NCBI RefSeq assembly: GCF_026967925.1
Contig: NZ_JAPVBI010000001.1
Span: 744,001-808,000 of the forward strand
Reading direction: 5' to 3'
Source: Modestobacter sp. VKM Ac-2985
GTDB taxonomy: Bacteria; Actinomycetota; Actinomycetes; Mycobacteriales; Geodermatophilaceae
DNA length: 64,000 bases
Part shown: positions 5,116-56,126 of the stretch, piece after piece
Layout: every line of letters begins with the position of its first letter
How positions within the stretch are numbered: position 1 is the stretch's first letter
The notes under the pieces: model-generated
Seen by the model: only the letters and a program-made list of their open reading frames with translations
Told to the model about the DNA's origin: nothing
Database searches by the model: none
Position numbers and translations under genes: made by a program

Positions 5116-6366
5116 GTGCCCCACACCGCAGAGCCCACCGACACCGACGTGCTCGTGGTGGGGGCCGGCCCGGCCGGTGCAGCTGCCGCTGCGTGGGCCG
5201 CGCGCGGCGGCGCCGAGGTCGTGCTCGCCGACGCCGCCGTCTTCCCCCGGGACAAGACCTGCGGTGACGGGCTGACCCCCCGGGCCATCGCCGAGCTCGA
5301 CCGCCTCGGGCTCGGCGACTGGGTGCGCTCGCACGGCCGCAACCGGGGGCTGCGGGCGGCCGGCTTCGGGCAGGAGCTGCTGCTGCCCTGGCCCGGTGGC
5401 GCGCTGCCCGACCACGGCGGCGCCGTCCCGCGCACGGAGCTGGACGACCGGATCCGCTCGGTGGCGCTGGACGCAGGGGCCACCCCGCTGGAGGGCGCCC
5501 GGGCGGTGGACGTCGAGCGGGACGGCGACCGGGTGGGTGCCGTGGTGTTCCGCCGTCCCGACGGGTCGACGACGACGGTCCGCTGCCGCCGGCTGGTGGT
5601 GGCCGACGGGGTCCGCTCCCCGCTGGGCCGGGTGCTCGGCCGGGAGTGGCACCGCGACACGGTCTACGGCGTGGCCGCGCGCGGCTACGTGCGCTCGGGG
5701 CGCAGCGACGACGAGTGGATCAGCTCGCACCTGGAGCTCCGCGGCGCCGAGGGGGAGCTGCTGTCCGGCTACGGCTGGGTGTTCCCGCTGGGGGCCGAGC
5801 GCGGTGAGGTCAACGTCGGCGTCGGCACCCTGGCCACCGAGCGCCGCCCGGCCGAGGTGGGGCTGCGCGCCCTGCTGGAGCTCTACACCGACCAGCGGCG
5901 GGCAGAGTGGCAGATCGAGGGCGCCGTGCAGGCTCCCGCCAGTGCGCTGCTGCCGATGGGCGGGGCGGTCTCCGGTGTCGCCGGGCGCAACTGGGCGCTG
6001 GTCGGGGACGCCGCAGGGTGCGTGAACCCGCTCAACGGCGAGGGCATCGACTACGGGCTGGAGACCGGTCGCAGCGTGGTCGAGCTGTTCGACGAGGACG
6101 ACTGGTCGCAGGCCTGGCCCACGACGCTGCGGCGGCACTACGGCGAGGCGTTCTCCATCGCCCGTCGACTGGCCGGGCTGCTCACCGTGCCGCGGTTCCT
6201 GCCGGCCGCCGGGCCGGTGGGGATGCGCTCCCGGGTGCTGATGACCGTGGCCCTGCGGGTCATGGGCAACCTCGTCACGGACGCCGACCGGGACCTCACC
6301 GCACGACTGTGGCGTCGGGCCGGGCGGCTCTCGGTGCGCCTGGACGACCGCCCGCCCTTCAGCTGA
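5116..6366 (+). CDS. FAD-dependent geranylgeranyl/menaquinone reductase family protein
   Basis: The 416-residue flavoprotein saturates an isoprenoid double bond, either on geranylgeranyl chains or on the beta-isoprene of menaquinone (the MenJ role in mycobacteria). It has an N-terminal Rossmann fingerprint GAGPAGAAAA (residues 14-23), a 'DKTCGDGLTPRAI' segment typical of the family, and the second FAD motif 'LVGDAAGCVNPLNGEGID' near residue 300. Length matches the family. It starts with GTG; the preceding RHH-like gene ends 41 nt upstream. Which isoprenoid is used cannot be read from sequence alone. Confidence 0.85.
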   Translation: MPHTAEPTDTDVLVVGAGPAGAAAAAWAARGGAEVVLADAAVFPRDKTCGDGLTPRAIAELDRLGLGDWVRSHGRNRGLRAAGFGQELLLPWPGGALPDHGGAVPRTELDDRIRSVALDAGATPLEGARAVDVERDGDRVGAVVFRRPDGSTTTVRCRRLVVADGVRSPLGRVLGREWHRDTVYGVAARGYVRSGRSDDEWISSHLELRGAEGELLSGYGWVFPLGAERGEVNVGVGTLATERRPAEVGLRALLELYTDQRRAEWQIEGAVQAPASALLPMGGAVSGVAGRNWALVGDAAGCVNPLNGEGIDYGLETGRSVVELFDEDDWSQAWPTTLRRHYGEAFSIARRLAGLLTVPRFLPAAGPVGMRSRVLMTVALRVMGNLVTDADRDLTARLWRRAGRLSVRLDDRPPFS

Positions 6367-6410
6367 ACAGTCCGCCGGGCGGGCGGCGCGCCGGACGGGT
6401 GCTGTGCCGC

Positions 6411-6429
6411 TACTGCGTTCTGCGCAGTA
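6411..6429 (+). promoter_or_regulatory. Palindromic operator upstream of padR-like gene
   Basis: TACTGCG at 6411-6417 and CGCAGTA at 6423-6429 form a perfect 7-bp inverted repeat with a 5-bp spacer, 35-53 nt ahead of the ATG of the PadR-type regulator. PadR proteins are winged-helix dimers that commonly repress their own promoter through such dyads, so this is a likely autoregulatory site. Confidence 0.5.
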
Positions 6430-6463
6430 CTGTGCGGTGCACCGACCAACCCGGAGGACGTCG

Positions 6464-6796
6464 ATGGACACCACGCAACTGCTCAAAGGGGTGCTGGACC
6501 TCGCCGTCCTCGCGGTGCTGGACGGCGAGGACGGCTACGGCTACGACGTCGTCCGGCGGCTGCGGGCGGCCGGGCTGGAGGAGGTCGGCGACGCCTCGGT
6601 CTACGGCACCCTCCGGCGGCTGTACGCCGCCGGGCACCTGACCAGCTACGTCGTCCCGTCGGCCGAGGGGCCGCACCGCAAGTACTACGGGCTCAACGTC
6701 TCCGGGCGGGCGCAGCTGGAGATGGCGACCAAGACCTGGCACGGCTTCGCCGACACGATGGCGGCCCTGCTGACCGATCCGGAGGTGGCGGCATGA
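6464..6796 (+). CDS. PadR-family transcriptional regulator
   Basis: A 110-residue winged-helix repressor. The hallmark start is present: 'LLKGVLDLAVLAVLDGEDGYGYDVVRRL', followed by 'SVYGTLRRLYAAGHL' (recognition helix and wing) and a short dimer helix. The ATG at 6464 has GGAGG at 6453-6457; the open frame to 6404 has no better start. Its stop overlaps the ATG of the next gene (ATGA), so the two are translationally coupled. PadR genes next to a HAAS-domain membrane protein are a recurring bacterial pair in which the membrane protein is the regulated or sensing partner. Confidence 0.9.
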   Translation: MDTTQLLKGVLDLAVLAVLDGEDGYGYDVVRRLRAAGLEEVGDASVYGTLRRLYAAGHLTSYVVPSAEGPHRKYYGLNVSGRAQLEMATKTWHGFADTMAALLTDPEVAA

Positions 6797-7791
6797 CCGG
6801 CGCGACGAGTGTGGGCCGGCAGGCCGAGGTGCGGGAGTACGCGGCGGCCGTGCGAGCGGCGCTGACCGACGTCCCGGCCGAGCGGTGCGAGGAGCTGCTC
6901 GAGGACCTCGAGGACCACCTGGCAGAGGTGGCGGCGGACGGCGATGCGCCGCTGGAGTTCCGGCTGGGTTCCCCTCGCCACTACGCCGACGAGCTGCGGA
7001 CCGCCGCCGACCTGCCCGCCGCGCCGGCGGCCGAGCACGACCGGGTCGGGCTGACCGAGCTGGTCGGCCGGGCCCGGGCGTGGGAGCCGGTGCGGCAGGT
7101 CGAGGCGTTCCTCCCCGAGCTCCGCCCGGCGTGGTGGGTGGTGCGCGCCTGGGCCGCCGTGACCGCGGTCGACGTGGTCTTCGTGGGCGGCACGTCCTTC
7201 CCGGTGCCCACCCTCGGGCTCGGCCCGATCGGCCTGCTCGTCACCGGCGCGGCCATCGCCTGGTCGGTGCGGCTGGGCCTGCGCGCCCGGGCGGAGCAGC
7301 GCGAGCCCGGGGGCCGTGCCGCGCTGGCCAACGCCGGGCTGGCGCTGCTGACGCTGGTCGCGCTGGTCGGACTGGCGGCGGGCCCCGGCGTCGCCACCGC
7401 CGAGACGGTGTACGTCGACGACCCCCAGCCCGACCACCTGGTGCACGAGGACGGCACGCCGATCACGAACATCCTGCCGTTCTCCTCGACCGGCGAACCG
7501 CTGCGCGGGGTGCTGCTCTACGACCAGGACGGGCGGCCGATCGACGGCCTCGCCGACGTGACGCTCGACGGCGACCAGGTCGAGGCGGTGCCGGACGCGC
7601 CGTTGCAGCCGGGCAACGCCTATCCGCAGCAGCGCCAGGTGCGGGGCTGGGACGAGTACGGCCAGGAGGCCGTCGTCCCGATGCCGCTCCCGAGCACCGC
7701 ACCCACCAGCGGTGGCGCGCCGGAGGAGCCGGCCCAGGCCGTGCCGGGGGAGACCCCGGTGCCCGACCCGGGGGCGCCGCCGACGCCGTGA
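6793..7791 (+). CDS. HAAS-domain membrane protein, partner of PadR
   Basis: A 332-residue protein whose first ~75 residues resemble the HAAS/DUF1700 domain ('YAAAVRAALTDVPAERCEEL', then LEDLEDHLAEV), usually found beside PadR regulators. Three hydrophobic stretches follow near residues 115-200, then a non-cytoplasmic region with 'VYVDDPQPDHLVHEDG' and a Pro-rich tail. The ATG overlaps the padR stop by 4 nt. The role is unknown; related pairs are thought to link an envelope signal to gene control. No enzyme motif is visible. Confidence 0.75.
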   Translation: MTGATSVGRQAEVREYAAAVRAALTDVPAERCEELLEDLEDHLAEVAADGDAPLEFRLGSPRHYADELRTAADLPAAPAAEHDRVGLTELVGRARAWEPVRQVEAFLPELRPAWWVVRAWAAVTAVDVVFVGGTSFPVPTLGLGPIGLLVTGAAIAWSVRLGLRARAEQREPGGRAALANAGLALLTLVALVGLAAGPGVATAETVYVDDPQPDHLVHEDGTPITNILPFSSTGEPLRGVLLYDQDGRPIDGLADVTLDGDQVEAVPDAPLQPGNAYPQQRQVRGWDEYGQEAVVPMPLPSTAPTSGGAPEEPAQAVPGETPVPDPGAPPTP

Positions 7792-7804
7792 GCGGCCGGG
7801 CGGC

Positions 7805-8626
7805 TCAGGCGAGCGGGGAGTTGTAGAGCGCGAACCAGACGGCGATGTAGTGGCAGATGGCGGCCACGATCGTCATCGCGTGGAACACCTCGTGGTAACC
7901 GAACGTCCCCGGCCAGGGGTTGGGCCGCTTGCTCGCGTAGGCGATCGCCCCGACGCTGTAGAGCAGGCCACCGACGGCCAGCAGCACCATGGCGGTGACG
8001 CCGACCAGCTGCAGGATGTCGACCATCACGAACAGCGCCGCCCAGCCCAGCGCCAGGTAGATCGGCACGCCCAGCCAGCGGGGCGCGTGCGGCCAGACGA
8101 CCTTCAGGGCCACGCCCAGCGCAGCGCCGGCCCAGACCAGGGCCAGCAGCCACCAGCCGGTCGGCTCGGGGACGGCGAGCAGCGCGAACGGCGTGTAGGT
8201 GCCGGCGATGAAGACGAAGATCATCGAGTGGTCGGCGCGCTTCATCAGCTTCCAGCCGCGCGGTGACCAGCGGCGGCGGTGGTACAGCGCGCTGACCCCG
8301 AAGAGCCCGAGGATGGTGACGCAGTACAGCGCCACCGACCAGCCGGCCCGGGCGCCCTGCACGGCGGCGAGCGGGATGAGCACCGCCGCGGCGACGATCG
8401 ACCCGAAGAACGCGAACAGGTGCAGCCAGCCCCGCATCCGCGGGCGGGTGTCGGGGTGGTCGGGGTCGCCGTGCTCCGCCCGGGTCCACTGGGCCTGGCG
8501 CTCGAGGTGCTCGACCCGTTCGCCCTCCTCGTGGACGGTGGAGACCGCCTCGTCGGCCGGCGCCTGGAGCTCGGCGCCGTCGGCGGTGACCCGGACGTGG
8601 TCCTCGCGGTCTGAGGAGACGCTCAT
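7805..8626 (-). CDS. trhA: TrhA/hemolysin III family membrane protein (PAQR superfamily)
   Basis: A 273-residue integral membrane protein with about seven helices. Family residues are visible: 'SALYHRRRWSPRGWK' with the conserved Ser/His, 'RADHSMIFVFIAGTYTPF', and near the C-terminus 'GYHEVFHAMTIVAAICHYIAV' with the His pair. PAQR proteins are predicted metal-dependent hydrolases; bacterial TrhA affects membrane-lipid homeostasis. The first ~65 residues form a charged cytoplasmic extension longer than in E. coli YqfA. It is convergent with the HAAS gene, 13 nt apart. Confidence 0.9.
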   Translation of the reverse strand: MSVSSDREDHVRVTADGAELQAPADEAVSTVHEEGERVEHLERQAQWTRAEHGDPDHPDTRPRMRGWLHLFAFFGSIVAAAVLIPLAAVQGARAGWSVALYCVTILGLFGVSALYHRRRWSPRGWKLMKRADHSMIFVFIAGTYTPFALLAVPEPTGWWLLALVWAGAALGVALKVVWPHAPRWLGVPIYLALGWAALFVMVDILQLVGVTAMVLLAVGGLLYSVGAIAYASKRPNPWPGTFGYHEVFHAMTIVAAICHYIAVWFALYNSPLA

Positions 8627-46430: not shown

Positions 46431-47396
46431 TCAGGCGGGTTGGGCGGCCGGGCCGCGCTCGGGGATCACCCAGCCGTGCCGGGCCCGGCCACGTGGCTGG
46501 GGGACCGGGAAGGGGAGCGGTGCCGCCGCGGTCCGGCCGGCGGACTGACGGGCGGCGACCCGCTCGACGTAGGCGCGCTGCTGGTTGCGGGCGCGCACAC
46601 CCCCGTCGGCGGGGACGGCGGTGCCGTCCCAGATCTCGCTCATCGCGGCGTGCAGCAGGGTGAGCGCGCGGGCCCGCATCTGCGAGACACGGGAGAGGGT
46701 GACGCCGAGGGAGTCGGCGATGTCGGTGAGGGACTCGTCGCCGAAGAAGTTGCGCTCCACGACCTCGTCGAGCTTGTCGGGGAGGGCGCGGATCGCCTCG
46801 TGCAGGTGCCGGGCCCGCTCCCCGCGCAGCAGTGCGCGCTCGGGGGAGTCGCCGGTGTCCGGCAGGTCGAGCGAGCCGCCGTCGGTGCCGGTCTCGGCGT
46901 CCATGCTCACCATCACGGCCCGGTGCACGTCGATCTGCAGGGAGTCCAGCTCCGAGCGCTGCACGCCGAGGCTGGCGGCCAGCTCCTCCTTCGTCGGCGG
47001 GCGGCCCAGGCTGATCGTCAGCGCATCGGTCGCCGCGTCCGTGCGCCGCGCTGCGGCCCGGACCGAGCGGCTGGCCCAGTCGCCGGAGCGCAGCTCGTCC
47101 AGGACGGCGCCCTGCAGGCGCGGCAGGGCGTAGGTGGCGAACGTCGCCCCGGCGGTCGGGTCGAAGCGGCGGGCCACCTCGACCAGCGCGACGCTGGCGC
47201 AGGAGAGCAGGTCGTCCCGGCTGACGTGGCTGGGCAGCGAGATGCGCGAGGCCACCGCGTTCACCGCGAACTGGGCGAGCGCGAGATGGGTGGTCACCAG
47301 CGCGTCGACGTCTGCGGGTCGGCGCTCACTCACTACGGGGCGGGCTGCGGTCACACCCTCCTTCTCGGCTGACCGTCGACCGCGTGGCACCGCCAT
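46431..47396 (-). CDS. fliA: Flagellar sigma factor (FliA/WhiG class)
   Basis: A 321-residue sigma-28-type factor. Region 2: 'SRDDLLSCASVALVEVARRFDPTAGATFATYALPRLQGAVLDELRSGDWASRSVR' (read in parts) is the FliA/WhiG signature. Region 3: 'GRPPTKEELAASLGV'. Region 4: 'LTDIADSLGVTLSRVSQMRARAL'. A 60-residue basic tail follows. Start ATG 47396 has GGAAA; GTG 47354 and GTG 47333 are alternatives. It should read the GGTCA-N17-GCCGATGA promoters here. No flgM anti-sigma gene is visible. Confidence 0.9.
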   Translation of the reverse strand: MAVPRGRRSAEKEGVTAARPVVSERRPADVDALVTTHLALAQFAVNAVASRISLPSHVSRDDLLSCASVALVEVARRFDPTAGATFATYALPRLQGAVLDELRSGDWASRSVRAAARRTDAATDALTISLGRPPTKEELAASLGVQRSELDSLQIDVHRAVMVSMDAETGTDGGSLDLPDTGDSPERALLRGERARHLHEAIRALPDKLDEVVERNFFGDESLTDIADSLGVTLSRVSQMRARALTLLHAAMSEIWDGTAVPADGGVRARNQQRAYVERVAARQSAGRTAAAPLPFPVPQPRGRARHGWVIPERGPAAQPA

Positions 47397-50531: not shown

Positions 50532-50780
50532 ATGCTCACTCTCACCCGCAGCGTCGGCGAGAGCATCCGGATCGGCGAGGACATCGAGGTCTACGTCGTC
50601 GAGGTCCGCGGCGGGACCGTGCGGCTGGGCTTCAAGGCCCCCCGCGAGGTGACGATCCACCGCGAAGAGGTCTACCGGCAGATCGCCGAGGCGCAGAGCC
50701 TGGCCGCCGAGGTGGCCGCAGATGCGCTGGCCGCGTTGTCGGCATTTGCACCAGGGCCGGACCAGTCGACTGTCAAGTAG
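50532..50780 (+). CDS. csrA: Carbon storage regulator CsrA
   Basis: An 82-residue RNA-binding dimer. 'MLTLTRSVGESIRIGEDIEVYVV' and 'VRLGFKAPREVTIHREEVYRQI' are the full CsrA core with the key Arg residue near 44 retained; ~20 residues are added at the C-terminus. In flagellated Gram-positives CsrA blocks flagellin mRNA and is held by FliW, usually encoded beside it; no fliW is seen in this window. GGAGG lies inside a small stem CATGG/CCATG (50517-50521, 50530-50534) covering the start codon, suggesting self-control. Confidence 0.95.
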   Translation: MLTLTRSVGESIRIGEDIEVYVVEVRGGTVRLGFKAPREVTIHREEVYRQIAEAQSLAAEVAADALAALSAFAPGPDQSTVK

Positions 50781-50922: not shown

Positions 50923-51516
50923 ATGGAACTCAGCGCACTCGCATCGGGCCTGGCACACGGCGTCGAGCTGTCGGTCGACCTGCGCGTCGGGCCGTCCGGC
51001 GCCGACGACCTGCGTCCCTGTGATGCCGTCGACGGCTTCTCCGGTGAGCCGGCTGCCGCGGCCTGGTCGGAGACGGTGGTCGTGCACGTCCAACTGCGCC
51101 CCCGTCGGCCGGCCACCCGCCGGTGCCTCGCCGCCCTCACGGGGCTGGCCGCCCGGCACGAGTCGGTGGCCTTCGCGCTGACCGGCCTCAGCGGCGACGA
51201 CCGCGCCGTCCGGATCACCGTGGGCGTCGAGCTCGGCCCGCGCGAGCTGATCGCGAAGTTCTCCGACCAGGCGCAGGCCGCCTACGCCTTCGTGGACGGG
51301 CTCTTCACCGACCTCTACGACTTCATGCCGGTGTACGTCGCCGAGCCGAACGAGGTCGAGCGCGCAGCGGCCGCCGGTGTGCTCGAGGCCGTCGAGACGC
51401 CCCGGCCCCGCATGCCGGCGCCGCGGGTCCCGGCCCCGCGCATCCCCTCGCCCCGCCGTCCCTCCGGTGACAGCGTCCACGCCCCTGCCCGCCGCGGGGT
51501 GCCCGCCCTCGTCTGA
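50923..51516 (+). CDS. Unknown protein after csrA
   Basis: A 197-residue soluble protein, not recognised. ATG at 50923 has GGGGAG 7 nt upstream. It has a mixed alpha/beta pattern for about 150 residues ('ETVVVHVQLRPRRPATRRCLAAL', 'DRAVRITVGVELGPRELIAKF', 'AAYAFVDGLFTDLYDFMPVYV') and a Pro/Arg-rich tail with repeated PAPR-type units. No signal peptide or helix. Its place between csrA and a sigma-like gene suggests a regulatory or flagellar link. Confidence 0.6.
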   Translation: MELSALASGLAHGVELSVDLRVGPSGADDLRPCDAVDGFSGEPAAAAWSETVVVHVQLRPRRPATRRCLAALTGLAARHESVAFALTGLSGDDRAVRITVGVELGPRELIAKFSDQAQAAYAFVDGLFTDLYDFMPVYVAEPNEVERAAAAGVLEAVETPRPRMPAPRVPAPRIPSPRRPSGDSVHAPARRGVPALV

Positions 51517-51619: not shown

Positions 51620-52717
51620 GTGTCCCAGGACATGCTCACCACCCAGCTCGCCACCGACCCCGCCCGGACCCGTGAGCCGCTCGTCTTCGGCGGCCTCACC
51701 GAGGCCGAGGGCTGGGCGCTGGCCCCGATCACCCCCCGCGACCGGGTGCACTTCCGCACCGACCGGGAGCTGCCGCTGGACACCTTCCGGGCGGCCCTGC
51801 CGGCCGAGGTCACGGTGACCTACGACGAGGGCGACGGCCTGTACCGGGTCGACGGCGAGACCGGGACGGCCGAGGAGCTCGCCGGACTGATCCGGGCCTG
51901 GTGCGGCACCGAGGGCTACGCGACGGTCGGGCTGCGGCCGGAGACCGGCGTGCGCCGCCGGGCGCCCCGCGACCTGCCCGCCGCCTTCCTCGACGGGCTG
52001 TGCCGGCACTACTGCCGGGTCAGCCTCAAGCGCCTGCAGCGGAACATGAGCACGATCCGGCTGCACCTGCCCGACAACGACGACGTCGACCAGCAGGTGG
52101 CCGAGTGGGTGCTGAAGGCGGTGAGCCAGTACGACGAGACCAAGTCCGTCCCCTTCGGCGCCTTCCTGGCGACCCAGCTCTCCAAGTGGGTCCACGACCT
52201 GGGACGCAACGCCTACGGCCGGACCGCGGCGGACACGGAGAACAAGCAGCAGAAGGCGGTGGCCGCGTTCACCGCGGAGCACCAGCGCCGGCCCAGCGAG
52301 AAGGAGCTGGCTGCCTACATGGGCCAGAGCGTGGCCACGCTGCGCCGCAACTCCCAGACCGTCGCCACCCTGAACGGTCTGCGCAACCTGCAGTCCCTGG
52401 ACGGCGGGGCGGACACGGTGGAGTTCGTGGTCCCCGACAGCGCCGAGGTGCCCGACGAGATCATGGGCGAGGCCGAGCAGAGCCTGCTGTCGCACGCCCT
52501 GACCGCCGCATGCGCCCCCGACCCGACGGCCCGGCGGGACCAGCGGGCGGCCCAGCCGAACGTGCTGGGCTGGGCGACCTGGTACCTGACGACCTGGGGC
52601 GGGCAGACCAAGACGCAGCTGTCGGCCGACCTGGGCACGTCGGTGCGCAACATGAACGTGCACGCCGATCGTGCCGAGAAGGCCCTCAAGGACCGTCTCT
52701 CCGAGCTGGGCGGCTGA
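51620..52717 (+). CDS. Divergent sigma-70-like protein with N-terminal extension
   Basis: A 365-residue protein. GTG 51620 has AGGAGG at 51610-51615. Residues ~1-125 are not recognised. From ~145 a region-2-like segment appears ('VAEWVLKAVSQYDETKSVPFGAFLATQLSKWVHDLGR'), then a region-3-like helix-turn-helix ('RRPSEKELAAYMGQSVATLRRN') and, at the C-terminus, a region-4-like one ('TKTQLSADLGTSVRNMNVHADRAEKAL'). It may be an alternative sigma factor, or a sigma-derived regulator since promoter -10 contact residues are degenerate. Its proximity to csrA and flgL suggests a motility role. Confidence 0.65.
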   Translation: MSQDMLTTQLATDPARTREPLVFGGLTEAEGWALAPITPRDRVHFRTDRELPLDTFRAALPAEVTVTYDEGDGLYRVDGETGTAEELAGLIRAWCGTEGYATVGLRPETGVRRRAPRDLPAAFLDGLCRHYCRVSLKRLQRNMSTIRLHLPDNDDVDQQVAEWVLKAVSQYDETKSVPFGAFLATQLSKWVHDLGRNAYGRTAADTENKQQKAVAAFTAEHQRRPSEKELAAYMGQSVATLRRNSQTVATLNGLRNLQSLDGGADTVEFVVPDSAEVPDEIMGEAEQSLLSHALTAACAPDPTARRDQRAAQPNVLGWATWYLTTWGGQTKTQLSADLGTSVRNMNVHADRAEKALKDRLSELGG

Positions 52718-52793: not shown

Positions 52794-52823
52794 GGGTCCA
52801 TCGGGCCTCTCACCTGCCGATAT
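52794..52823 (+). promoter_or_regulatory. Flagellar sigma-type promoter for 52.9-54.0 kb gene pair
   Basis: GGGTC (52794-52798), 17 nt, GCCGATAT (52816-52823). The second box is close to the classical sigma-28 -10 (GCCGATAA). The next gene starts 84 nt downstream. Confidence 0.6.
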
Positions 52824-52907
52824 CCAAGTCGTGAACGCGCCGGAGCCCACTCGCCGCACTGCGCGGGCCGGTCGTCCGGTCGGGGCCCAGCGCCCGGCGG
52901 TGGGGGA

Positions 52908-53255
52908 GTGAGCGGCCCCCCGGCCGAGGACCCGGCGCAGGCGGTCCTGGTGCCGCACTGGTTGAGCAGCCCGGACCGGCTGGAGGTCGAGCGGGCGGTG
53001 CGCGCCGCGCTCGACGGCGGACCGCTGCACCCGGTCGCCGCCGTCCACCTGGGCGAGGTGCTCACCGAGCTGCACGTGGCCGCCGCCCGCGAGGTCGTCT
53101 GGCCCGCGCCCACCGCGCGCGTCCGCCGGGCCACCGGCTGGTCCGACGACGTCGTCCCGGTGCGGCTGTCCGCCGTCGAACTGGCGAGCGTCTTGTCCCT
53201 GCCCGGTCTGGCGACCGTGGCCCGAGAAGCCCTGACCGGAGGTCGCAGCGCATGA
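52908..53255 (+). CDS. Unknown small protein, likely flagellar regulon
   Basis: A 115-residue soluble protein with no recognised domain: 'SSPDRLEVERAVRAALDGGPL', 'VAAVHLGEVLTELHVAAAREVVW', 'VVPVRLSAVELASVLSL'. GTG 52908 is preceded by a G-rich ribosome site almost touching it. Its stop overlaps the ATG of the following gene (ATGA). The sigma-28-like promoter upstream ties the pair to motility. Confidence 0.55.
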   Translation: MSGPPAEDPAQAVLVPHWLSSPDRLEVERAVRAALDGGPLHPVAAVHLGEVLTELHVAAAREVVWPAPTARVRRATGWSDDVVPVRLSAVELASVLSLPGLATVAREALTGGRSA

Positions 53256-54013
53256 CCGGAGCGCTCTTCGGCACCCCTGCCGGGCTCCTGCAGAGACTGA
53301 ACCGGGCCGAGGTCCGGGTGCCCGACGTGTGGGCGGCCGTGGAGCTGCTGGCCGACCGGGGCGTCCACCCGGACCTGGAGCTCGGCGTCCTGGACGGGAC
53401 GGGCCGCGGCCCGATGCTGGTGCTGGACGACACCGGTCGTCGCACCCGCGTCCTGCTCGCCGAGCTCGCCGCGGAGATGACCCGGGCCCGGGTGCCCGTG
53501 ACGGCCGAGTCGGTCGCCACCGCGCTGGGTGCCTGGCTCGCCCGCCGCCCGGTGCCCGACCCGGTCGCCCTGGCCACCGGCGTCGCCGTCCTGGACTGGT
53601 CCGACGCCCGGCACACCGCGCTGGGCTGGCGGGTGGTGGTCGCCCGCGAGCAGCTGCTCGTGCCCTGGCGCCCGTCCCGCACCGCGACGCTGCCCCTGGT
53701 CCACCGGGTGCGCTCGGCGGCGCTGGGCCGCGCCGCGATCGTCCGGACCGCGCTCCGGGTCGAGGGCCCGGTGGGCCTGTGGACCTCGACGAGCGTCCCC
53801 GGCGTGGACACCGCGGTGCTGGTGCGCCCCGAGGAGCTGCTCGTCGAGATGGCCACCGCGGGGCTGCGGCTGCACGACATGCACGTCGTCGTCACCCCGC
53901 ACCGGCCGGTCGCCTGCGCGGACGCCGCCGTGGCGCGCCGGCTGGTGGCGGAGGCGACCGATGCCTGCGCCACCCTGCCGTGGCAGGAGCTGGCCGACCT
54001 CGGCTGGGCCTGA
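53252..54013 (+). CDS. Unknown protein, translationally coupled to preceding gene
   Basis: A 253-residue soluble protein, not recognised. The N-terminal part is helical ('GLLQRLNRAEVRVPDVWAAVELLADRG'), followed by alternating strands ('GPMLVLDDTGRRTRVLLAEL', 'GWRVVVAREQLLVPW', 'VDTAVLVRPEELLVEM', 'DMHVVVTPHRPVAC'). No catalytic motif stands out. ATGA overlap with the 115-residue gene implies joint function. It converges on the peptidase gene, 23 nt apart. Confidence 0.6.
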   Translation: MTGALFGTPAGLLQRLNRAEVRVPDVWAAVELLADRGVHPDLELGVLDGTGRGPMLVLDDTGRRTRVLLAELAAEMTRARVPVTAESVATALGAWLARRPVPDPVALATGVAVLDWSDARHTALGWRVVVAREQLLVPWRPSRTATLPLVHRVRSAALGRAAIVRTALRVEGPVGLWTSTSVPGVDTAVLVRPEELLVEMATAGLRLHDMHVVVTPHRPVACADAAVARRLVAEATDACATLPWQELADLGWA

Positions 54014-54036: not shown

Positions 54037-55986
54037 TCAGCCCAGGTCGCCGTACTCCCAGTGCCACGGCTCCGGGTTCTGCCCGCCCGAGCGTGCCCAG
54101 TCCGGCTGCAGCCAGCCGAAGTGTCCCGCGGTGAGCTGCATCCACGCCGTCTGCGCGGTGCCGAACGCGTTGATCCCCCCGCACAGGTCGACCGCCAGGG
54201 CCCAGCCGTGGTTGGAGGTCCCCGGCACCGCGGTGATCCGCGGCTTCCGGTGGTGGACGTCGACCTGTGCGTCGAGGGACCGGTAGGAGTCGGTGATGCA
54301 CAGCGGGGCGCCGAAGGCCTGCGCGTAGGCCGCGGACATCGCCCGGTAGGCGGCCGCCGCGTCACAGCGCAGCCGGTGCCCCCCGCCGATCGAGCAGAGC
54401 TGGTCGGCCGGGATCTGTCCGTTGGCCCAACCGCCCCAGGCGCCGGTCACCGGACCCGGAGTGCTCCCCGGTGCCGGCAGCGGCGCACTGCACGTCGCCG
54501 AGACCGGGCCGGTGACCGGGACCTGCGCGGGCGTGGCCGGCGGCACCGTCACGCGGACGGCGGTGCTCAGGTCGGACAGCTCGCGCACCGCCACCTGCCC
54601 CTGGTCCGAGGAGGCGGAGAGCACGCTGGTGCCGCCCAGGTACAGGCCGACGTCGTCCAGCCCGCTGCGCGGGTCGGTGCTGAACACCAGGTCGCCCACC
54701 TGCAGCTGGCCGGCCGGGACCGGGGTGCCCGACGCCCACTGCCCGGGCAGGTCGGCGGGCAGCCCGATGCCGCCCTGCGCCCACGCGGTCGCGGCGAACC
54801 CACCACAGCCGTAGCCGTCGGGTCCCTGCTGCCCGACCAGGTAGGGCTTGCCGAGCTGGGCGAAGCCGGCGCTGACCGCAGCGACGGTCTCGGCGGAGAG
54901 CACGGTCAGCGTGCCCCCGGCCGCGTAGGTGGTGGCGGTGCCGGGCACCGGCGCGCCCGTGGCGTCGCGCAGCGCGGCGAGGCCGGTCGGCAGCGCACCG
55001 GGGTCGGTCAGGTCCGCGGCGGGGGGCGGGGTGACCCCGGCGGCAGCCAGCCGTCCCAGGTGGTCCTGCCAGCCGGCCAGCGCGGCGGTGTTGCGCGCCT
55101 GCTGGTCGGCCGCGGCGGCGCTGGTCGACAGCGCGGCCCACTGGGCGCTCACGGTCGGGTCGAGGTCGGCGACGATCGTGCGGACCTCGGCGAGCACGTC
55201 GGCGGCCCGGCCGCGCGCCTGCGCCGCGGCCGCCTCGGCCGCTGCGGCGGTGTCGGTGTGCTGCGCCGCCTGCACGGCAGCCAGGGCGGCGCGGGCGACC
55301 GAGCGGTCCTGCCGCTCGGCCAGCTGCTCGGCCAGGCCCTGCACGTGCAGGACGTCGGAGGTCGACCCGGGCTGGTGCAGGGAGAGCTGTGCCAGCGGCC
55401 AGCGCTCCTCCGGGTTGCGTCGGTACGCGGTGGCCGCGTGCGCACCGACGGCAGCCCGGTCGGCGGTGACCCTGGCCAGGGCGGCCGCGCCGGTGTCGCG
55501 GGCCTGCTGTGCCTGGTCGTCGAGCGCATCCGCCTCGGCCAGCGCGGCCCGGTGGCGCGCGGCCGCGTCCGCGAGGGTGGCGGCGATGGCTGCCACCTCA
55601 CCGGCGGCGGCTGGTGCGGGCACCTGGCCGGCCTCGGTGGGCGGCTGGGCGCTGACGGCCAGGACGCCGATCAGGGCCAGCGTCGCACCGCCGACGACGG
55701 CCAGGCGGTGCCACCAGCGCCGGGGATCACCGGGGGTGCGGCCGCGCGCGGGTCGGCGGGTGGCCGGAGCCGGCCGGCGGCCGGCGGGGACGGTCTTCCG
55801 CCCCGTCGTCTGGCGGGCCTGGGGAGTGCCGACCGCGGGCTTCCTCGCGGGCGTCTTCCGGGCGGGGACCTGCTGGGCGGGGGCCTTCCGTGCGGGGGCC
55901 TTCCGCACCGGGGCCGTCCGGGGGGGCTGGCCGGTGGAGCGGGCACGGGGCCGCGGCGCAGGAGCCTGCGCGCGTGCTGCAGACAC
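54037..55986 (-). CDS. Secreted wall peptidase: coiled coil + NlpC/P60-like + VanY-type carboxypeptidase
   Basis: A 649-residue envelope protein. A basic Pro/Arg/Lys-rich tail (residues 1-90) precedes one helix (~95-113), a coiled coil (~130-310), an NlpC/P60-like domain (~355-470) and a C-terminal M15/VanY domain. In NlpC/P60 the Cys is in GYGCGGFAATAW, but the His position reads LDDVGLYLGG, with Asp for His, so this domain may be inactive. VanY zinc residues are visible in 'GTSNHGWALAVDL' and 'EPWHWEYG'. GTG 55986 has GGGGGGA upstream. Likely role: D,D- or L,D-peptide trimming. Confidence 0.85.
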   Translation of the reverse strand: MSAARAQAPAPRPRARSTGQPPRTAPVRKAPARKAPAQQVPARKTPARKPAVGTPQARQTTGRKTVPAGRRPAPATRRPARGRTPGDPRRWWHRLAVVGGATLALIGVLAVSAQPPTEAGQVPAPAAAGEVAAIAATLADAAARHRAALAEADALDDQAQQARDTGAAALARVTADRAAVGAHAATAYRRNPEERWPLAQLSLHQPGSTSDVLHVQGLAEQLAERQDRSVARAALAAVQAAQHTDTAAAAEAAAAQARGRAADVLAEVRTIVADLDPTVSAQWAALSTSAAAADQQARNTAALAGWQDHLGRLAAAGVTPPPAADLTDPGALPTGLAALRDATGAPVPGTATTYAAGGTLTVLSAETVAAVSAGFAQLGKPYLVGQQGPDGYGCGGFAATAWAQGGIGLPADLPGQWASGTPVPAGQLQVGDLVFSTDPRSGLDDVGLYLGGTSVLSASSDQGQVAVRELSDLSTAVRVTVPPATPAQVPVTGPVSATCSAPLPAPGSTPGPVTGAWGGWANGQIPADQLCSIGGGHRLRCDAAAAYRAMSAAYAQAFGAPLCITDSYRSLDAQVDVHHRKPRITAVPGTSNHGWALAVDLCGGINAFGTAQTAWMQLTAGHFGWLQPDWARSGGQNPEPWHWEYGDLG

Positions 55987-56126
55987 CGTCGTCCCCCCAG
56001 CTGCGTCGGATCGGCCCGGTCGCCAGGTGGCGTCCGTTGTCCTGATCCCATCGACGTGCCAGCCGGGCCGGTGGAGGTCCCTCACCGGTTCGGGGGGTGC
56101 AGCTCACCCCTTCGGGGGGAGACGAC

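Follow-up and report, generated by a model that had tools for sequence, protein, structure and literature searches.

A conserved sigma-28-type promoter and a predicted leaderless ORF precede a coupled pair of unannotated genes near the flagellar genes of Geodermatophilaceae

What do two overlapping genes with no recognisable relatives do at the edge of a flagellar gene cluster? The question was raised by the window, a 64,000-nucleotide stretch of a Modestobacter genome in which gene A (52908–53255, plus strand; GTG start, TGA stop) encodes 115 amino acids and gene B (53252–54013, plus strand; ATG start, TGA stop) encodes 253, the stop of A and the start of B sharing four nucleotides (ATGA). 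An earlier note on this DNA had reported two proteins of these sizes, a 4-nt overlap and no recognised family, and all of this was borne out: neither protein had any match in Pfam, NCBIfam or PHROGs, and PADLOC gave a single chance-level match, to A (E 0.016). Scanning of 45 relatives of A and 43 of B returned weak, scattered matches at most. Sensitive profile searches, which the note had suggested, found nothing in PDB below E 0.37 with the A or B profile; structure prediction, also suggested there, gave poor models (pLDDT 53 and 42 for A and B, respectively, from shallow alignments of six sequences each). The alignments of relatives comprised 44 (A1) and 42 (A2) of the 56 loci of a first set, each plus the window; near-duplicates were left out, as were L078 and L097 from that of B, their starts being uncertain.

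No obvious hydrophobic segment was seen in A or B (KD19 maxima 1.59 and 1.07). A is under purifying selection, with pairwise dN/dS values of 0 to 0.29 against the window copy, and selection on B is weaker (0.14 to 0.58; ten comparisons for each). The 4-nt overlap between the stop of A and the start of B was found in 91 of 101 loci and took the form TGATG in three more; seven loci of genus g5 had no overlap. By eye, the order of secondary-structure elements in B resembles that of YtpQ (DUF1444). However, none of the 43 B members matched PF07285 at E values up to 10, and this assignment was rejected; in 59 genomes no protein exceeded the PF07285 cut-off. Four weak plasmid matches to B, in ABC permeases or unannotated sequence, were likewise discarded. 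Because homologues are undetectable, any biochemical role given to A or B is a guess.

The distribution of A was compared with that of flagellin (PF00669) in 112 genomes of Geodermatophilaceae. A was present in 101 and flagellin in 100, the two occurring together in 98; A was found without flagellin in three genomes (G155, G186 and G207), flagellin without A in two (G176 and G206), and neither in nine (G204, G181–G185 and G187–G189). The nine double-negative genomes belong largely to one group of genera (g50–g52), so that the pattern amounts to about one evolutionary event and not to 112 independent ones. Two of the three exceptions carried the usual neighbours of the flagellar-cluster loci and thus look like incomplete assemblies: G155 (84% complete) retains csrA-orf213-sigX-A-B-peptidase-citrate synthase on L151, and G207 (72% complete) retains sigX-A-B-peptidase on L152, a locus outside the 101 counted here. 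These 101 loci correspond to about 100 genomes, since L161 is very probably a duplicate of L025 (Modestobacter; each has 16,016 bases). A link to motility had been proposed in the earlier note, which would have given way had homologues occurred mainly in non-flagellated species; with flagellin in 98 of the 101 A-bearing genomes, the link stands.

Beyond the family, a sample of 121 genomes from across the order gave strong B matches in 15, all of them Geodermatophilaceae, and weak ones in four more. Class-wide searches gave two family members and one weak match with the A profile (394 genomes), and one family member and eight weak matches outside the family with the B profile (384 genomes); scoring covered 7 to 11 candidates per genome, so that distant homologues may have escaped. 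The weak class-level matches (one genome for A, eight for B; E 1e-3 to 1e-2) were put down to chance, and in L149, the one inspected, the matching frame lay among unrelated genes. In G001, a flagellated relative from another family, A and B are absent at the flagellar cluster. As judged by these searches, neither protein was found convincingly outside Geodermatophilaceae.

The pair had been placed just after flgN-K-L-csrA. It does lie nearby, but not just after: csrA (50532–50780), the last recognised gene of the flagellar operon, ends 2.1 kb before the start of A, and two genes intervene, orf213 (50923–51516; 197 amino acids from the ATG at 50923; a conserved partner of sigX whose family was not recognised) and sigX (51632–52717; 361 amino acids, divergent and sigma-70-like; conserved directly upstream of the A–B promoter), all three on the plus strand. 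Eleven larger loci (L025–L035), ten of them from genera other than that of the window, were set against it, and all keep the order flgN-flgL-csrA-orf213-sigX-A-B, so that the conservation beside flagellar genes that was to be checked in related genera was found; flgK rows were excluded from every gene-order count. B is followed in all 11 loci by a cell-wall peptidase gene with NlpC/P60 and VanY domains (54037–56085, minus strand, in the window) and, in the ten longer ones, by citrate synthase. About 2.5 kb separates sigX from A in L026 and L027. Both carry extra opposite-strand genes in the stretch from sigX to the A promoter (5670–7905 and 5853–7834, respectively), promoter and leader being intact despite them, and so does L151 (2377–3603). 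A gene for a FliA/WhiG-family sigma factor lies on the minus strand at 46431–47300, its true start perhaps further upstream; it matched TIGR02479 with E 2.4e-44, its 151.7 bits falling short of the curated cut-off (189.6).

The promoter named in the earlier note, GGGTC-N17-GCCGATAT of flagellar type, is present and proved to be part of a family-wide footprint. In the window, GGGTC (52794–52798) is followed by a 17-nt spacer and GCCGATAT (52816–52823), the whole site reading GGGTCCA-N15-GCCGATAT (52794–52823, plus strand). Among 53 unique rows, which exclude L031 with its differing upstream half, the footprint upstream of A was GGGTC[C/G]A-N13-CTGCCGATATCCA, in which GCCGAT was invariant, CTGCCGAT nearly so, and the base after GCCGAT was A in 47 rows and G in six; its distance from A ranged from 15 to 155 nt. 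A promoter-like site preceded A in all 101 loci, with GG-N20-GCCGAT exact in 99. The strict motif GGRTYSA-N15-GCCGATR was found in 44 of the 56 first-set loci and in 80 of 101 loci overall, and shuffling of the upstream regions (11,200 sequences) never produced it. For flgN, a similar upstream site, G[GA]CT[TC][GA]A-N15/16-GCCGAW, was seen in 13 of 14 loci. In the window by itself, GCCGATAW occurred once against 0.40 expected, which is not significant. An unanchored window scan for the promoter was uninformative, with 291 sites against 263 expected. In its own genome, the exact A–B motif occurs once, and with up to one mismatch ten sites were found against 11 for a reversed-pattern control, so that no regulon could be drawn.

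The published consensus of the FliA/WhiG (sigma-28) regulon is TAAA / GCCGATAA (PMC8325347). The A–B promoter shares with it the -10 element GCCGATA, and it shares with regulon promoters flagellar neighbours and a cluster that includes a sigma gene of the FliA/WhiG family. By contrast, in place of the published TAAA at standard spacing, the -35 region reads GG[G/A]T[C/T][C/G]A-N15 (GGGTC[C/G]A-N15 in the footprint), and we therefore call the promoter sigma-28-type and not a canonical member of the class. The sigma factor encoded at 46431–47300 likely reads it, and we infer from sequence that the A–B promoter depends on FliA/WhiG.

The footprint extends beyond the -10 box as CGTGAC, which places a GTG at +15 when counted from the G of GCCGAT. 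In the window this GTG opens a predicted leaderless leader ORF of 26 codons plus TGA (52831–52911, plus strand), the TGA of which overlaps the GTG of A by 4 nt; the two-gene operon of the earlier note thus stands as a pair, which a short ORF additionally precedes. The leader was first seen in the 56 loci, and 45 more, L151 included, were then used as a test set, which shares genera with the first set and in which L161 duplicates L025. An RTG, always GTG, was found at +15 in 88 of 101 loci (48/56 and 40/45 in the first and test sets, respectively). In 86 of these 88 it lies in the coupling frame, ending on the start of A; in L102 and L105 it opens A itself, and the third frame is empty. The leader TGA overlaps the start of A as RTGA in 83 of the 88 (43/46 in the first set, 40/40 in the test set), so that the coupling prediction held for every test-set locus with an RTG (39/39 without one duplicate). 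The leader stop reads CTGA in three of the 88. In L085, L094 and L099, of genus g54, A seems to start at a CTG overlapping the leader stop. Leader lengths fall into 18 classes of 18 to 47 codons, all in the coupling frame, where free lengths would give each class a one-in-three chance; since the species are related, no exact probability is claimed for this. The leader is not universal, as 13 of the 101 loci lack a GTG at +15, namely all seven g5 loci examined and single cases such as L029, L082, L084 and L151.

The leader peptide is unconserved past its first codons, and no coding bias was detected in the leader (GC1–3 of 0.79/0.83/0.83 vs 0.85/0.55/0.95 in A), which indicates that start and frame are kept and not the peptide. 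In 34 of 83 leaders a CGCCGC hexamer (52852–52857 in the window) begins 21 nt downstream of the GTG; third codon positions are the most conserved, and no consistent RNA hairpin was found to account for the hexamer. Nor was a conserved hairpin seen at the start of A (mean pairing 0.68 vs 0.67 overall). Two observations point to +15 as the transcript start, as we infer it: the use of that GTG as the start of A in L102 and L105, and the spacing in family f49, where each of the four pilT genes recognised has an annotatable ATG at precisely this distance from a GCCGAAA box, counted from its G, against an RTG at +15 for five of 35 GCCGAWA sites overall. The f49 pilT genes themselves appear to be leaderless from these boxes.

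As judged from this arrangement, leader and A would match the leaderless coupled small ORF architecture described in mycobacteria, where leaderless small ORFs are RTGA-coupled to the downstream gene (PMC4633059). Common to both are an unconserved peptide, a TGA overlapping the next start as RTGA, and a function residing in the downstream gene; the RTG at the 5' end is, for the present case, a prediction. The present case differs in its Geodermatophilaceae host and FliA/WhiG-type promoter, in 18 leader lengths over about 100 species, in a second RTGA coupling that follows, and in that the leader is predicted from sequence.

The genes between csrA and the promoter were traced further. SigX matched the FliA/WhiG model TIGR02479 weakly (E 1.8e-6, 27.9 bits) and its homologues scored 20.6 to 30 bits or gave no match; these scores lie far under the cut-off of 189.6, and SigX is therefore described as sigma-like and not as a proven sigma factor. 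It may no longer be a working one. Among 394 genomes of the class, sigX was found in ten, two from Geodermatophilaceae and eight from family f49. An orf213-type gene precedes sigX in seven of the eight f49 loci; in the eighth, L133, sigX is matched and a spurious reverse ORF was called over the orf213 stretch. The f49 neighbours of sigX (L129–L136) are type IV pilus genes, that is, pilin and/or pilus ATPases, pilC and prepilin peptidase, as read from the gene listing and checked against Pfam for one locus, L134. Profile comparison (hhalign) of orf213 (97.6%, E 2.6e-12) and sigX (99.9%, E 3.7e-33) with their f49 counterparts confirms, at the level of sequence profiles, that they are true homologues of the pilus-cluster genes. 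Where seen, a 238-amino-acid protein of no known identity follows orf213-sigX in f49; homology of A or B to it or to the next protein was rejected (hhalign probability 0.1 to 0.5%), and searching the f49 stretches with the A and B profiles gave nothing below E 0.12.

In G186, the third A-bearing genome in which flagellin was not detected, the orf213-sigX-A-B block has as its neighbours a pilin gene (N-methylation motif, E 8.1e-10), another gene that is prepilin-like and a sigma gene of WhiG type (E 8.6e-96; its 320.7 bits narrowly miss the cut-off of 343). This evidence comes from a single contig, the MAG being 74% complete, and is the sole pilus-side case for A–B themselves; sigX was not found in the other searched genomes of g50–g52.

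Combined, these observations incline us, tentatively and short of conviction, to regard A–B as a sigma-28-type, translationally coupled pair within a regulatory motility block, and not as part of the flagellum itself. Gene order, the promoter footprint, the leader with its kept frame, the two couplings and the restriction to one family are all seen in the sequence; what follows is a model. RNA polymerase would start at or beside the G of the GTG at 52831, which would leave an mRNA without a 5' leader; the ribosome would load directly on that GTG, translate a short peptide of no fixed sequence, reach the TGA on the start of A (RTGA) and re-initiate there, and a second RTGA would lead to re-initiation on B. 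The two couplings would place A and B under a single promoter and keep their amounts in a roughly constant ratio. A and B would be two cytoplasmic proteins, possibly forming a complex, made together and late, while a FliA/WhiG-type sigma factor is active. The four genes orf213-sigX-A-B would form a block, with A–B at its output end, attached to motility genes: those for flagella in nearly all Geodermatophilaceae and those for type IV pilins in one. Most likely, A and B would act on or with SigX, or on FliA, adjusting the expression of late motility genes. A regulatory role is favoured over a structural one by the sigma-like gene upstream, the lack of an obvious membrane segment, the absence of the pair from G001 and its company of pilin genes in G186; the same four points weaken the earlier suggestion that the two proteins are themselves motility components.

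Three other readings concern what the proteins do. A and B could be flagellum-specific assembly helpers, such as chaperones for export or accessories of the motor, whose late expression would coincide with that of flgK, flgL and flagellin. The near-coincidence with flagellin, the invariant position after flgN-flgL-csrA and the flagellar type of the promoter all suit such helpers, and we hold this to be rather unlikely; it is harder to reconcile with the intact block beside pilin genes in G186, with a flagellated relative that does without A and B at its flagellar locus, and with the failure of either protein to match a flagellar family. Alternatively, the block might mainly serve surface attachment or type IV/Tad pili and be merely lodged beside flagellar genes, sharing their sigma factor. 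All eight f49 loci place orf213-sigX in pilus clusters and G186 does so for the whole block; moreover, WhiG-type control is reported for type IV pili in Rubrobacter and for pili and flagella in Actinoplanes (PMC8325347), and tad genes are reported for all Geodermatophilaceae genomes studied in PMC9686282. Against this, the block stays in the flagellar cluster of flagellated Geodermatophilaceae, f49 has neither A nor B near it, and within the family the presence of A tracks flagellin, which together make the pilus reading quite improbable. A role for A–B as a CsrA partner replacing FliW is suggested by the failure to detect FliW (PF02623) in Modestobacter, where csrA is kept. It is highly improbable, given that FliW and A coexist in six genera and that neither A, B nor orf213 matches PF02623; for orf213 alone, the same replacement is weakened by this co-occurrence. 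Detection of FliW varied across the family: it was present in g2, g4, g6, g53, g54 and g55 (70 of 112 genomes), whereas Modestobacter (g1), g3 and g5, all of which keep csrA, gave no detectable FliW, and the usual CsrA antagonist is, by these searches, apparently lost in the latter three. In G001, fliW lies between flgL and csrA.

A further reading concerns the leader. CGTGAC after the -10 box might be a DNA or RNA signal, such as a regulator site or an element of the initially transcribed region, and the ORF incidental to it. Strong nucleotide conservation of CGTGAC, and of CGCCGC some 21 nt after the GTG, would fit a signal, as would a peptide that is neither conserved nor biased in its codons. 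Such a signal would not, however, account for 18 leader lengths that all keep the TGA on the start of A with the third frame empty, nor for the two frame-0 loci, L102 and L105, that use the GTG as A's own start, and we consider an incidental ORF improbable. The preferred reading, a coupled regulatory pair behind a frame-keeping leader, has a parallel in the RsiG–WhiG c-di-GMP switch, another actinobacterial control unit of sigma-28 type whose motility or developmental outputs vary: it governs sporulation in Streptomyces but type IV pili in Rubrobacter, with WhiG-type control of pili and flagella cited for Actinoplanes (PMC8325347). The same source lists RsiG for all 16 of its Geodermatophilaceae species and gives its c-di-GMP motifs as E(X)3S(X)2R(X)3Q(X)3D; unlike that switch, no RsiG or WhiG identity is claimed for orf213, SigX, A or B. 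Flagellar, chemotaxis and tad genes are described across Geodermatophilaceae in PMC9686282, where motility was not observed in the Blastococcus strains studied. In open-access PubMed Central, no description was found of the A–B pair, the leader or the orf213-sigX block.

A bolder proposal, which we judge unlikely in its full extent, would make orf213-sigX(-A-B) a portable module for the control of motility, with a divergent sigma factor as its core, wired to type IV pili or flagella according to lineage. A–B would have been gained in Geodermatophilaceae as a new kind of sigma-acting pair, its dose governed by a leaderless leader ORF that is locked in frame but free in sequence.

Two unannotated protein families that track flagellin in Geodermatophilaceae are now named, and their promoter and leader are defined exactly enough to be cheap to test. 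An RTGA-coupled leader held in frame over 18 lengths and about 100 species would mark this architecture as a product of selection rather than noise. If the block truly serves both pili and flagella, the rewiring of a single control unit between surface and swimming motility would become testable in actinobacteria.
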